The position numbers and the translations under genes were made by a program. The notes beneath the pieces were generated by a model. That model saw only the letters and a program-made list of their open reading frames with translations, was not told where the DNA came from and ran no database searches. This document shows positions 517 to 33,939 of a stretch of DNA of 36,283 bases, in pieces. Source of the stretch: a virus. Positions within the stretch are counted from its first letter, which is position 1. Each line of letters begins with the position of its first letter. Location: positions 1 through 36,283 of the IMG/VR virus record IMGVR_UViG_3300043448_000779. One strand, written 5' to 3'.

Positions 517-2076
517 TTAATCTTCAATAAATGTTACACCACAACTTGCCGTTTGCATAACTGCACTGGAAGATACTGCAACTGCAAATTTTGTTTGAGG
601 TGGAAGTACAAGTCTTAGATTATCTAGGTCAAAATGATCGGGAGCACCAGATGTAAGGTTAAATACTGCAATTGGTGTTCCGCTAGTGATTAAACACTCT
701 GTCCCAGAATAAGAGGAAGAGTTACCAATTGGTGTAAAATCAAGTGGTGTTGAATATGTTGGGTCAATATACAAATAAAGAGTACAGGGGTTTGATGCTG
801 ATGCAGTTGTTCCGCCAGTAAGTCTTTTAAGTATAATTTCTCTCGTATTAATCTTATTATTTGCAATTAAATTATTTTTAATTGTAAGTAAATGATAAAT
901 TACATCCGTTGTATTCATACCACCACTTCTTGTATGGGTAGCAGCAACTGGATATGTTGTAGTACTAATAATGCCTTCAATTGCACCCATCATTGATGCA
1001 CCAGATACTGTTACCCCAACCCCAGAACTTCCATTTAATTCTGCAGCAACATATCCAATTTTAAGTGAAGGATTGTCTAAATGGACATCATTATTTCTAT
1101 TTGAATAATGAATATGATGAATTGGCATCATATCACCAGTAGTTGGATTTTCAATCGCAAATCTCATCTCACCAACACCCAACCAACGGAAGTTGATTTG
1201 ATAAACATTTAACTTTGTGGGATCTAATGTAACTCCTGATGGATTTGTAGTTCCACCAACACCAGTCAAGGTATCAAAGTTCCAGTCTTCCTGATAAGTC
1301 CAATTACTTGTGTGGTTTATCCCAGATTGTGCCGTTGATGATGTTGCAACAAGAGTTCCAGAACTTGCAATTGAAAATGTCCCTGTTTTTGGACCCACAC
1401 TAGTTGCTAAAAACTCAATTTTAGAATCTTGATAATCGACAATCCAACCAGGAAATGTTTGCGTTCCAATTCCAGTTGTATTCTGAGTTGTTGTGCCCGA
1501 TGGAATACTTACAGTTTTGGCAACTCCTGCAAGAGTAACGGTTATGTTCTCTGTTCCAGTTGCAGCATTGGTGACAGTAAATCTATGAATATGTGCTTTA
1601 CCACCATTCTCACGAAGAATGCCAAATCTTCCATTGGTGTTAAATCCAACTTGAAGTGCTTGTTCTTGTGCAAAAAAACCTGCTCTTTGAGTATATCCTG
1701 TCACACTTCCAGAAAACTGTGCGGTAAATCTTGCAAGAGCACCTTGCCCAGGACGATATCTTACTGCTCTCTTTGAACGAATAACACTATAACCATAAGC
1801 ACCAGTTCCTGATGATGCTTTCATCAAGGTATTTGATGTTGTAATGCCAGTACCTGATGTAAATGTTTCAAATTTATTTGTTTCTAATCCATACAATGCA
1901 TCCAATTGCAGCACTGGCGTAACTGGAACAGCAATACTTTCACCAAATGCACTGTTAGCACTTGCTGTTCCATTACATCCATCAATATTGCCATATCTAT
2001 CGGCACAAATATTAACTTCAAAAAGGGATCTTTCTTGATTTAGATAATCCTGCGTAGTCTTATTCCACTGAGCCAT
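517..2076 (-). CDS. Putative virion structural protein (519 aa) next to terminase
   Basis: A 519-aa protein rich in Gly, Ser, Thr and Asn with alternating beta-like segments and no signal peptide or membrane segment, which suits a virion surface protein. A conserved-looking patch around residues 100-130 (RSKRAVRYRPGQGALARF) and a second near residue 290 (INFRWLGVGEMRFAIENP) look like the core of one domain and are typical of marine phage structural proteins. The C-terminal half has short strands ending in FAVAVSSSAV. Its start codon overlaps the preceding stop in a TAATG arrangement, so translation is probably coupled to the 102-aa gene. It sits between head-type genes and gp17. I recognise the type as one seen beside cyanophage terminase genes but cannot name a specific role; a capsid decoration or tail/fibre protein are both possible. 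Confidence 0.7.
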   Translation of the reverse strand: MAQWNKTTQDYLNQERSLFEVNICADRYGNIDGCNGTASANSAFGESIAVPVTPVLQLDALYGLETNKFETFTSGTGITTSNTLMKASSGTGAYGYSVIRSKRAVRYRPGQGALARFTAQFSGSVTGYTQRAGFFAQEQALQVGFNTNGRFGILRENGGKAHIHRFTVTNAATGTENITVTLAGVAKTVSIPSGTTTQNTTGIGTQTFPGWIVDYQDSKIEFLATSVGPKTGTFSIASSGTLVATSSTAQSGINHTSNWTYQEDWNFDTLTGVGGTTNPSGVTLDPTKLNVYQINFRWLGVGEMRFAIENPTTGDMMPIHHIHYSNRNNDVHLDNPSLKIGYVAAELNGSSGVGVTVSGASMMGAIEGIISTTTYPVAATHTRSGGMNTTDVIYHLLTIKNNLIANNKINTREIILKRLTGGTTASASNPCTLYLYIDPTYSTPLDFTPIGNSSSYSGTECLITSGTPIAVFNLTSGAPDHFDLDNLRLVLPPQTKFAVAVSSSAVMQTASCGVTFIED

Positions 2077-2384
2077 TAATCACTCCAACTCAATCTTTCT
2101 GGTTGATATCTTTGTGCGTTTTTAATTATTGAAGTATTTACCTGATTTGGATAAATGTTATGAACAATTGCTCCAGGATATTCTCCTTGAATTTGCTCTG
2201 CTAATTGATTTTTAGAAAGCATCTTGCCTTCTACTTCTAAACGATATAGCTTTCCTTCCCACATAACATCGGCAAAGAAAGATTCTTGTGCCTGTTCCTG
2301 TTGAGAAGAACCTACATTTAAAGTTCCGTTAAAGTCACCATTAATAGTGATGCTTTCTGATAGAAATTGTTGAAAGGATTTCAT
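2076..2384 (-). CDS. Small protein with capsid-targeting-like N terminus (102 aa)
   Basis: A 102-aa protein of unknown function. Its first residues, MKSFQQFLSES, closely resemble the capsid-targeting sequence of T4 internal proteins II and III (MKTYQEFIAEA). That sequence directs them into the prohead core and is cut by the gp21 protease after an [L/I]xE motif; here LSE lies at residues 8-10. The next part (residues ~13-27) is a short beta-like stretch with NGDFNGTLNVGSS, and the rest is a small mixed domain. It begins one base after the stop of the 560-aa gene and its stop overlaps the next ATG (TAATG), so the three genes are co-translated. I infer an internal head or prohead-processed protein; this rests on the N terminus alone. 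Confidence 0.65.
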   Translation of the reverse strand: MKSFQQFLSESITINGDFNGTLNVGSSQQEQAQESFFADVMWEGKLYRLEVEGKMLSKNQLAEQIQGEYPGAIVHNIYPNQVNTSIIKNAQRYQPERLSWSD

Positions 2385-2385
2385 T

Positions 2386-4068
2386 TTAGTTACAGTTCCA
2401 ACGACGTAGGGCTTTGTTAATTCTTGAATCTGGGTCTCTTGCAGTTTTTGCTGAAGTCAACTTAGATTTCATACCTTTCATACGACGACAAAATGATGCA
2501 CGACGTTTTGCTCTTTTACCCGATGGATTTTTTTCAGTTACTGCAGTTTGAAGTTTTGAACCTGGATTTTCACGACGATATGCTTTTACTGCAGCAGGAC
2601 TCAATCCATCAGTTTTATCCTGACGATTAACTTTCTGCCAGTCCTCGATAACATCTCCTTTTGGTTCATAAGAGTTAGTTTGGGGAACTCTTTTATCTCC
2701 ACCGATCGGAGTGGTTTTTCTAGATTTGTCTAGTGCGTCATTTACTGGTTTTTCTCCAAGTTTTTTGACAAGATAAGGAAGTGCTGCGGCTCCTGCTGCC
2801 AAGGCAACTTTACCCCAAAGTTCATCTAGTTGCTGAGAATCTTCCTGCAACTCTTGTTTTAACTCTTCCCTCCAATTAGAAAACTGTTCCTTTTTAACAC
2901 AACGATTATATGTTTTTCCAAATAGTTTTTGAGTTCCTTTTTTCTCATAACCTGGCCAACATTTCTTTGCTGCCTCTTCAACATTATGCTCACCGCTTTC
3001 AACATAATCTGCGGCAGTATCAATATAATCTGCTGCTTTGGTAATTTTAGATTGAACCCAAGCTTCAATACTACCTTCACCTTTCATTTTTTTCTTCAAT
3101 CTTTTTGCTGCAGAAATTATAGTAGAAAGTTCGGAACGAGCCATTGAATACTCGTGATCCTTTTCTTCGTTTGCAGGATGTGGTCTAGTTGAATTGTATT
3201 TAATTTGATTTGCAGTTAACATTGGTGGAGAAGAAACTATTTCTGGTCCCGAATATGGCATGGTTATTTTATAATCTTTTTTATTCGTAATTATTTCTGC
3301 AGGTAAAGAATACATATCCCAATATTTTGGTCCATATCTACACTCACTTCTCAATTCAAGTTTTTCGCATTTCGGACAATATCTATCAGGTCTTTCACGA
3401 ATTGGAGTATTCCAGTCATAATTTAAAGCGGTTGTGGTTTCTTCTGTTTTGGTTCCCCAGTTATCAGCACCAACTTTACGACATTTAACCAATGCTCCAG
3501 AAGCATAAGCACTTGGCCAAACATCATATCTTGCCTTAACCTTATGGTAGCAGGCATCTTTTGTCCCACTACCTTTTCCAGGTTTATCTTTCTTTGCTTC
3601 GTTGAGTTCCATTTGTTCTTTAATACCTGGTTCTGCTTTTATGTAATTGGGATCCTTTTTACCTTTTGCAAAAGTTGCAACATTTGTTGGAGATGCTGCT
3701 CCAGATTTTGCTTGCTGTCCTTTATCTTTTTGGCGCTTACGACGAACCGCTGATCTAATCAGTGCTTCTCCTTTTTTACCTTTTCTCTTCAAAGCTTTTA
3801 ACCTTCCACTACTAAAACACTTTGGTGTTTTAGTTTCTCCGGGTTCATTTGCACAAGGTGAACCATCTGCTTGAACCCAACCAGGTTTTCCACCTTTTGA
3901 TTTTGAACCTTTGAACCAATGATGGAGAGTGCCTTCACTGAAGGGAGATTTAGATTGAGTCTCTTGTCCCCTTGACCTTTTTTTGCGAGCAGCACAATGG
4001 GATTTTTGTGAAAATCCTTTTGGATTGTCACAGTCTATTGATTTCTTATAATCTTTAGACCAACTCAT
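2386..4068 (-). CDS. Basic modular protein with DUF5872/DUF6321-like modules, possible internal head protein (560 aa)
   Basis: A strongly Lys/Arg-rich 560-aa protein built from short, Cys-containing modules. From the N terminus: a CDNPKGFSQKSHCAARKK module (13-30); a GGKPGWVQADGSPC segment (59-72) followed by a very basic stretch (84-122); a DUF5872-like block with ACYHKVKARYDVWPSAYASG (172-191) ending GADNWG; a possible zinc knuckle CPKC...EC (231-243); a helical block MARSEL...KITKAADYIDTAADYV (309-356); a CWPGYEKKG...FGKTYNRCVKKE block (370-394); a short hydrophobic segment (418-435); and a DUF6321-like C terminus FCRRMKGMKSKLTSAKTARD (526-545). The module types are known from cyanophage and some large-virus proteins of unknown function. 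The charge and its place among head genes suggest a DNA-associated internal protein. No clear Shine-Dalgarno precedes the ATG. Domain names are from memory. Confidence 0.72.
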   Translation of the reverse strand: MSWSKDYKKSIDCDNPKGFSQKSHCAARKKRSRGQETQSKSPFSEGTLHHWFKGSKSKGGKPGWVQADGSPCANEPGETKTPKCFSSGRLKALKRKGKKGEALIRSAVRRKRQKDKGQQAKSGAASPTNVATFAKGKKDPNYIKAEPGIKEQMELNEAKKDKPGKGSGTKDACYHKVKARYDVWPSAYASGALVKCRKVGADNWGTKTEETTTALNYDWNTPIRERPDRYCPKCEKLELRSECRYGPKYWDMYSLPAEIITNKKDYKITMPYSGPEIVSSPPMLTANQIKYNSTRPHPANEEKDHEYSMARSELSTIISAAKRLKKKMKGEGSIEAWVQSKITKAADYIDTAADYVESGEHNVEEAAKKCWPGYEKKGTQKLFGKTYNRCVKKEQFSNWREELKQELQEDSQQLDELWGKVALAAGAAALPYLVKKLGEKPVNDALDKSRKTTPIGGDKRVPQTNSYEPKGDVIEDWQKVNRQDKTDGLSPAAVKAYRRENPGSKLQTAVTEKNPSGKRAKRRASFCRRMKGMKSKLTSAKTARDPDSRINKALRRWNCN

Positions 4069-33597: not shown

Positions 33598-33939
33598 TTA
33601 ACGATCGACTTCACGTAGAGAATAATTGTCCGAATTGAGGTATTTTAGCACTTCTAGAGCGATTAATTTGGGATTTCCTTCACCACAAGTGTAGACATCG
33701 ACTGCCAAACACCCATTTTCTGGCCAAGTATGACAAGAAACGTGACTTTCTGCTAGTGCAATCACGACTGTACACCCTTGTGGTAGAAAACAATGCGAAA
33801 AAGTGTTCAAAATCTTCATTTTAGCACGATTTATGCCATTAATCATGACGTTCTGTAGAGATTCCACGTCATTAATCAGGTCAAAATCAACATCATACAC
33901 CTCTAGGAGCAGGTGTTTACCCATTGAAAACTGTTTCAA
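33598..33939 (-). CDS. speD: S-adenosylmethionine decarboxylase (prokaryotic type), auxiliary metabolic gene
   Basis: SpeD decarboxylates S-adenosylmethionine, giving the aminopropyl donor for spermidine synthesis in the host cytoplasm. The 113-aa protein has the pyruvoyl enzyme core: AESHVSCHTWPENG (63-76) with the self-cleavage pair Glu64-Ser65, the catalytic His70, and CGEGNP (85-90) with Cys85, all aligned to the Thermotoga enzyme motifs ESHLTIHTWPEYG and TCGE. All key residues are intact, so it should process itself. The length, about 113 aa, is near the bacterial class (around 120-130 aa). The start is uncertain: TTG at 33939 gives the usual few residues before the conserved GKH, while the ATG at 33924 leaves only MGKH; neither has a good Shine-Dalgarno. 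speD is a known cyanophage auxiliary gene. Confidence 0.93.
   Translation of the reverse strand: MKQFSMGKHLLLEVYDVDFDLINDVESLQNVMINGINRAKMKILNTFSHCFLPQGCTVVIALAESHVSCHTWPENGCLAVDVYTCGEGNPKLIALEVLKYLNSDNYSLREVDR

Follow-up and report, generated by a model that had tools for sequence, protein, structure and literature searches.

A putative head-packaged mosaic polyprotein of short modules in T4-like cyanophages

Results

A basic mosaic protein encoded between gp16 and gp17

The window (the complete stretch of 36,283 nucleotides analysed here, a fragment of the structural region of a T4-like cyanophage) encodes a 560-aa protein that appears to be a head-packaged mosaic polyprotein of internal-protein modules, with predicted cleavage in trans by the prohead protease gp21. 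We put the probability of this reading at about 0.6. It draws on conserved modules that are shuffled between phages, on hydrophobic-x-Glu tripeptides and capsid-targeting motifs observed in the sequences, and on virion data published for relatives.

The open reading frame lies on the minus strand (2386..4068), with its ATG at 4068 and its stop at 2386, and the plus strand across the same interval carries many stops. It adjoins gp16/TerS (4494-4081 in minus-strand coordinates) and is followed by a 102-aa internal-protein candidate (phrog_1742; 2076..2384, minus strand), a virion structural protein of 519 aa (phrog_1645; 2076-517) and the first part of gp17/TerL (504-1), while gp21 of this phage falls outside the window. 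Lysine makes up 14.6% of the protein, with 117 K+R vs 68 D+E and 13 cysteines. The preliminary description of a basic protein of short Cys-paired modules between gp16 and gp17 was thus confirmed, and the modules that it quoted are present. Elsewhere in the window, a 113-aa ORF (33598-33939, minus strand) resembles SpeD-type S-adenosylmethionine decarboxylase by eye.

PHROG searches matched the protein to phrog_727 (E 1.2e-87) and phrog_3477, and the homologues in S-SM1, S-SM2, P-RSM4 and P-SSM2 carry the label T4-GC 119; judged by sequence, the protein is a member of T4-GC119, a family of T4-like cyanophages. Matches to this family, annotated as "hypothetical protein", were found in 512 phage records and 327 IMG/VR stretches. 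The T4-GC119 of Sullivan et al. 2010 is the same gene family at the same locus; the relevant passages of that paper treat it as a hypothetical protein and part of a possible mobile cassette, and do not mention its modules, sites or targeting sequences (PMC3037559). The gp16-gp17 locus is described in passages of two papers as a hypervariable insertion region (PMC3037559; PMC2984593). The T4-GC119 gene of P-SSM2 (L141:2596-3411) lies between gp15 and gp16 rather than at this locus.

The sole domain that Pfam found in the 560-aa protein was DUF6321 (PF19846; aa 483-557, E 1.5e-14, 54.8 bits vs a cut-off of 28.5), which bears out one of two earlier domain proposals; the other, DUF5872, was absent by Pfam from the window (E<=1) and from 34 homologues (E<=0.01). 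DUF5661 occurs as an inserted module in 19 relatives and is absent from the 560-aa copy. An NCBIfam search with the protein returned nothing meaningful, a sequence search of solved structures returned none, and the gene and protein contain no tandem repeats. Among bacterial genomes, the DUF6321 module was found in 6 MAG contigs only, and these contigs may be phage. In the T7-like cyanophage P-SCSP1c (L130:2959-3213), DUF6321 forms a small stand-alone gene flanked by those for the major capsid and tail tube proteins.

Conserved modules are shuffled between phages

To describe the mosaic, profile HMMs of 15 short modules were constructed and used to annotate 85 homologues. All coordinates that follow are on the minus strand. 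From the N terminus, the protein consists of module N (aa 1-31, 3976..4068; SWSKDYKKSIDC..KGFSQKSHC), the strongly basic module A (aa 46-144, 3637..3933; GGKPGWVQADG, with a Cys pair), module B (aa 158-207, 3448..3597; CYHKVKARYDVWPSAYASGALVKC), module C (aa 229-254, 3307..3384; RYCPKC...C), the helical module D (aa 304-360, 2989..3159), module E (aa 368-392, 2893..2967; CWPGYEKKG..C) and module F, which is the DUF6321 domain of Pfam PF19846 (aa 476-559, 2392..2643). The Cys pair is near-invariant in modules N, A, B, E and F, and three Cys are conserved in C, while the helical modules D, G, J and I have none. From these patterns one might guess that module C binds zinc and that the modules with two Cys form disulfides. 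Modules A and F are very basic (mean charge +18 and +15).

About 50 architectures were found among the 85 homologues, with modules shuffled, swapped and duplicated. Module E stands before C or after D, A is exchanged for its allele A2 in many relatives, H takes the place of F, and DUF5661 (module G) and other modules are inserted. In held-out isolates modules also occur as separate genes or split across neighbouring genes. Module N is found elsewhere as a mini-gene behind a capsid-targeting sequence, or directly behind an internal CTS-like FEEFRE, and module D usually follows C, with no conserved site between them. By sequence comparison the modules are conserved and not the product of chance. 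The S-SM2 protein (L002:6096-8222) has DUF192 inserted as a further module (aa 339-441) between hydrophobic-x-Glu sites. A Gly/Ala-rich hydrophobic helix (LWGKVALAAGAAALPYLVKKL; aa 417-437, window 2758-2820, minus strand) lies in a lineage-specific linker of the 560-aa protein; similar stretches, such as RAGLAAGTALAG, are found repeatedly in relatives and might act on membranes.

Structure prediction gave short better-predicted segments separated by low-confidence linkers. The full-length AlphaFold model (pLDDT 55, pTM 0.23) was too weak for a fold search and fits, weakly, a beads-on-a-string layout; at low confidence it places two helices in module D (305-327 and 334-356), and the candidate cut sites described below fall within or next to linkers that were modelled with low confidence. 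Module F alone was modelled better (pLDDT 80). Since this model had no match in the PDB, and its significant matches in BFVD were other DUF6321-type phage proteins only, its function could not be deduced from structure.

Hydrophobic-x-Glu tripeptides mark the module junctions

The T4 protease gp21 cleaves after L/I-x-E (PMC9026906), and we searched both for this T4-strict motif ([LI]xE) and for a wider one, [LIVMF]-x-E, denoted phi-x-E. The number of [LI]xE tripeptides in the 560-aa protein alone (6 vs 3.1 expected) is not significant (Poisson about 0.1) and was rejected as evidence, so that the case for the sites was drawn from comparative analysis only. Among 50 dereplicated homologues, [LI]xE was enriched in linkers (155 vs 85 expected, z 8.3) and depleted within modules (38 vs 101 expected, z -7.0). 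The difference was sharper for [LI]xE[AGS], with 62 occurrences in linkers vs 19 expected and none in modules vs 22 expected, whereas the reversed motif E-x-[LI], used as a control, showed a much weaker linker bias (z 3.1).

In 90-97% of unique contexts, as compared to 14-46% after shuffling, the wider motif precedes modules A, B, E and F with nearly constant spacing, and it is present in the majority of linkers for 30 of 32 junction types. With the 32 types weighted equally, phi-x-E reached a mean of 0.93 vs 0.50 shuffled (Wilcoxon p 2e-10), and the strict motif a marginal 0.37 vs 0.27 (p 0.04). Strict sites were frequent at particular junctions (A-B 94%, E-F 93%, J-A 88%, I-E 80%); the C-D junction, an internal negative control, had [LI]xE in 6% of cases vs 22% shuffled. 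The strict rule is therefore strong at a subset of junctions and the wider rule general, which requires that the protease also accept V, F and M at P3. A strict T4 rule at every junction was rejected, as it holds mainly before B and F and at few others. In held-out isolates, which were not used in forming the idea, phi-x-E occurred at 32 of 39 boundaries vs 14.8 +- 2.8 shuffled. The homologues behind the junction statistics share descent and are not independent samples. Related phages do possess gp21, and the N-terminal maturation region of their gp23 reads FLSE|A, FISE|A or ILTE; these sequences fit the same specificity as the candidate linker sites.

The best conserved candidate in the 560-aa protein is LNE at aa 155-157 (3598..3606, minus strand), followed by A: [LI]xE is found in 32/34 relatives at this column, E157 is invariant, and P3 and P1 are kept while P2 varies. 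This site had been singled out in the preliminary description, together with LQE (407-409) and LDE (414-416) in the lineage-specific linker (2821..2850, minus strand), which were each conserved in only 1/34 and did not hold up as cut sites. Missing from that list were [LI]xE at 149, 223 and 437 and the looser FSE45, VEE365 and VIE475. FSE (aa 43-45, 3934..3942, minus strand), followed by GTLHHWF, is phi-x-E in 26/34 relatives ([LI] in 15/34), and phi-x-E precedes module A in 91% of unique contexts. VEE (aa 363-365, 2974..2982, minus strand), followed by A, stands before module E, where 90% of unique contexts have phi-x-E, and VIE (aa 473-475, 2644..2652, minus strand), followed by DWQ, stands before module F at a column that is phi-x-E in 33/34 relatives, 24/34 of them with [LI]. 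IRE (aa 223-225, 3394..3402, minus strand) is a weaker candidate: its linker exists in 14 rows, 11 of them with phi-x-E, and 20/34 rows are gapped. Positions 45, 157, 365 and 475 are thus better candidates for cut sites than 409 and 416.

Capsid-targeting sequences in and around the family

The capsid-targeting sequence (CTS) of T4 is MKTYQEFIAE. Its key positions within these ten residues are 4, 7, 8 and 10 (PMC9026906). The 102-aa neighbour of our gene begins with a T4-type CTS, MKSFQQFLSE|S, and this start is kept in 63/63 of its stand-alone homologues. An N-terminal CTS was found in 0/85 homologues of the 560-aa family, while internal CTS motifs were found in 5/50 members vs 0.5 by shuffling, for example KTFSEFMIE|A in a member on stretch L056. 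In relatives, single modules are encoded directly behind a CTS: in Bellamy the CTS is joined directly to module N (MKSFKQFQE|SWSNKYKKSIDC), and in S-SZBM1_192 MKTFKQYITE is followed by module F. These cases indicate that modules can exist as separate pieces. SSM2_108 of S-SM2 starts with a CTS and has a further motif inside the chain, KTFEEFRE|SWSNKYKKSIDC.

A linker element, FSNWREEL (aa 396-403, 2860..2883, minus strand), belongs to a pattern, [FYLW]S(x)WR, that is present in 36/50 relatives and lies in linkers in 39/39 copies. The element, in its [FY]S[ND]WR form, could replace the N-terminal CTS, given a presumed likeness to the F/Y4..F7 pattern. S-SZBM1_194, also at the gp16-gp17 locus (L123:3253-5376, minus strand), has the CTS-like TYREFIAE|G at an internal position and, behind it, a SAM-lyase-like domain (PF23780, E 6.8e-8); it may be a packaged anti-restriction factor, and P-RSM4_119 (L137:828-1499) looks similar. 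In the literature searched, mostly open-access, capsid targeting was linked to cyanophages in no paper besides a T4 review.

Relatives of the protein are found in virions

Our data on virions are the published tables and record labels of other groups, and concern relatives of the protein rather than spectra. Mass spectrometry of S-SCSM1 detected 45 virion proteins (PMC9602691), and the orthologue in this phage, gp029 (modules A2-B-E-C-F), is annotated as 'virion protein'; its candidate linker phi-x-E sites read VSE|GTLHKWF, MTE|GKDKKGKGSG and VSE|GAAWT. In S-CREM2, ORF137, encoded between TerS and TerL, has a J and an F module; virion mass spectrometry found it with 4 peptides (4.1% coverage), while TerS and TerL are absent from the virion list (PMC10665884). 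As relatives were found in virus particles, the 560-aa protein is probably head cargo, and we hold it very likely to be a virion protein. The virion proteins reported for S-SCSM1 and S-SZBM1 do not include the small phrog_1742-type neighbours with a CTS.

The S-CREM2 data also relate the CTS to virion presence. All five proteins starting with M[KRQ]x[FYL]xxF[LIVMF]xE (SAM hydrolase ORF6, ORF13, kinase ORF14, ORF136 and cytidylyltransferase ORF154) were detected, vs 45/212 others (p 0.0006); this pattern was widened after ORF136 was seen, and a narrower, T4-like pattern gave 4/4 (p 0.0026). A T4-type targeting motif may thus be a possible route of non-structural enzymes into cyanophage virions. 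The Cas9-like ORF12 of S-CREM2 has RFASFMAE|A near its start. The S-CREM2 loci with a CTS-type motif were ORF6, ORF12, ORF13 and ORF14 on stretch L126, ORF136 on L122 and ORF154 on L124.

Discussion

We propose that, late in infection, the 560-aa protein would be taken up into the prohead core together with the scaffold and with its CTS-bearing neighbours. There, gp21 would cut it in trans after hydrophobic-x-Glu in the flexible linkers and free small, mostly basic, Cys-paired modules, roughly N; A; B; C+D; E; and F, which would remain beside the DNA in the mature head; some would probably enter the host at infection, like T4 IPI-III and Alt. Recombination in linkers, by which every module arrives with a cut site of its own, would make head cargo exchangeable between phages. 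Cleavage itself, retention of the pieces, their ejection and the activity of the modules are the steps that we infer. Cutting at the linker sites is probable on the comparative evidence, and entry of the pieces into the host, by analogy with T4, slightly favoured. DNA binding as the main role of the pieces, for which only their basic charge speaks, seems doubtful. The SAM-lyase-like domain in S-SZBM1_194 and the DUF192 in S-SM2 suggest that the cargo could plausibly serve host take-over or anti-restriction, as T4 IPI does. The preliminary description had already suggested that the prohead protease cuts a polyprotein inside the head; the junction tripeptides, the CTS and the virion data of relatives lend this idea strong, if indirect, support. 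Of the sites that it named, 157 is conserved and 409 and 416 are not.

The protein might instead stay uncut inside the head, its modules acting as beads on a flexible string that, for example, neutralises DNA, and phi-x-E could then belong to the structure with which each module begins. The excess of positive residues in the protein and in modules A and F agrees with this, as does the detection or annotation of relatives as virion proteins, and a V-x-E tripeptide is conserved inside module F too (VTE512, 33/34). However, a role as module start does not account well for the depletion of strict [LI]xE within modules and its enrichment in linkers, for a site 157 that keeps P3 and P1 while P2 varies, or for the relatives in which a CTS leads straight into one single module, and we regard an uncut protein as unlikely.

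Two further readings seem less likely still. Its position between terS and terL in the window would suit an accessory of packaging that works with terminase outside the virion, but the P-SSM2 gene lies between gp15 and gp16, the locus is, in the passages cited above (PMC3037559, PMC2984593), a hypervariable insertion region, the S-SCSM1 relative is labelled a virion protein, and in S-CREM2 it is the relative and not TerS or TerL that appears on the virion list; such a role is very improbable. That same hypervariability, the roughly 50 architectures and the mobile cassette in which passages of Sullivan et al. (PMC3037559) place T4-GC119 could also point to a by-product of recombination, a hot-spot gene that gathers short viral domains with no common function. 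Yet the frame is open and module residues are near-invariant across hundreds of phages, and phi-x-E is kept at junctions despite variable linkers, which makes a functionless collection hardly credible.

If the polyprotein reading is right, it would be a rare case among DNA phages in which a single gene, through trans cleavage, supplies many small domains for delivery, and its cut sites would allow module exchange. It gives a testable role to a family still labelled hypothetical in hundreds of cyanophage records, and the candidate sites define concrete peptides to seek in existing mass-spectrometry data. Cyanophage virion proteomes have repeatedly shown puzzling non-structural proteins, including NMNAT-like enzymes, kinases and SAM hydrolase, whose carriage inside the virion was left undecided by the authors; a T4-type CTS on these virion enzymes offers a mechanism and a simple sequence test. 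A broader proposal, which we make tentatively and at somewhat less than even odds, is that heads are loaded with CTS-addressed modular cargo, that the polyprotein is cut in trans and its modules injected as separate effectors, and that the CTS explains the entry of NMNAT, SAM hydrolase, kinase and Cas9-like proteins.

The closest known parallel is formed by the T4 internal proteins IPI, IPII and IPIII and by Alt, which like the 560-aa protein are basic late proteins of T4-like phages with L/I-x-E sites. The likeness extends to the T4-type CTS, here borne by the neighbouring gene and by relatives with a single module, and to the reports of relatives in virions. Unlike them, the 560-aa protein consists of many fused modules, lacks an N-terminal CTS, has several predicted cuts and has its modules shuffled between phages, and no sequence relationship to the T4 internal proteins was found. 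Several gp21 cuts in one chain, as predicted for the 560-aa protein, are known from the T4 core proteins gp22, gp67 and gp68; the fragments of these mostly leave the head, whereas our protein has conserved modules between its sites. The ejection (E) proteins of the giant phages SPN3US and phiKZ are head cargo cut after x-x-E, in some cases several times per protein, by a gp21-like protease, with A-x-E as the motif in SPN3US (PMC10052503), but there N-terminal propeptides are trimmed from one mature protein. Polyvalent proteins (Iyer et al. 2017, PMC5512222) are multi-domain phage proteins predicted to enter the host with the DNA and to separate into domains; they contain an embedded peptidase and known enzyme domains, of which Pfam found none in the 560-aa protein, and the text of that paper does not mention cyanophages. 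Delivery of head-packaged proteins is thus a concept known from T4, and the fused, shuffled and predicted trans-cleaved form described here appears, from the sequences, to be new.
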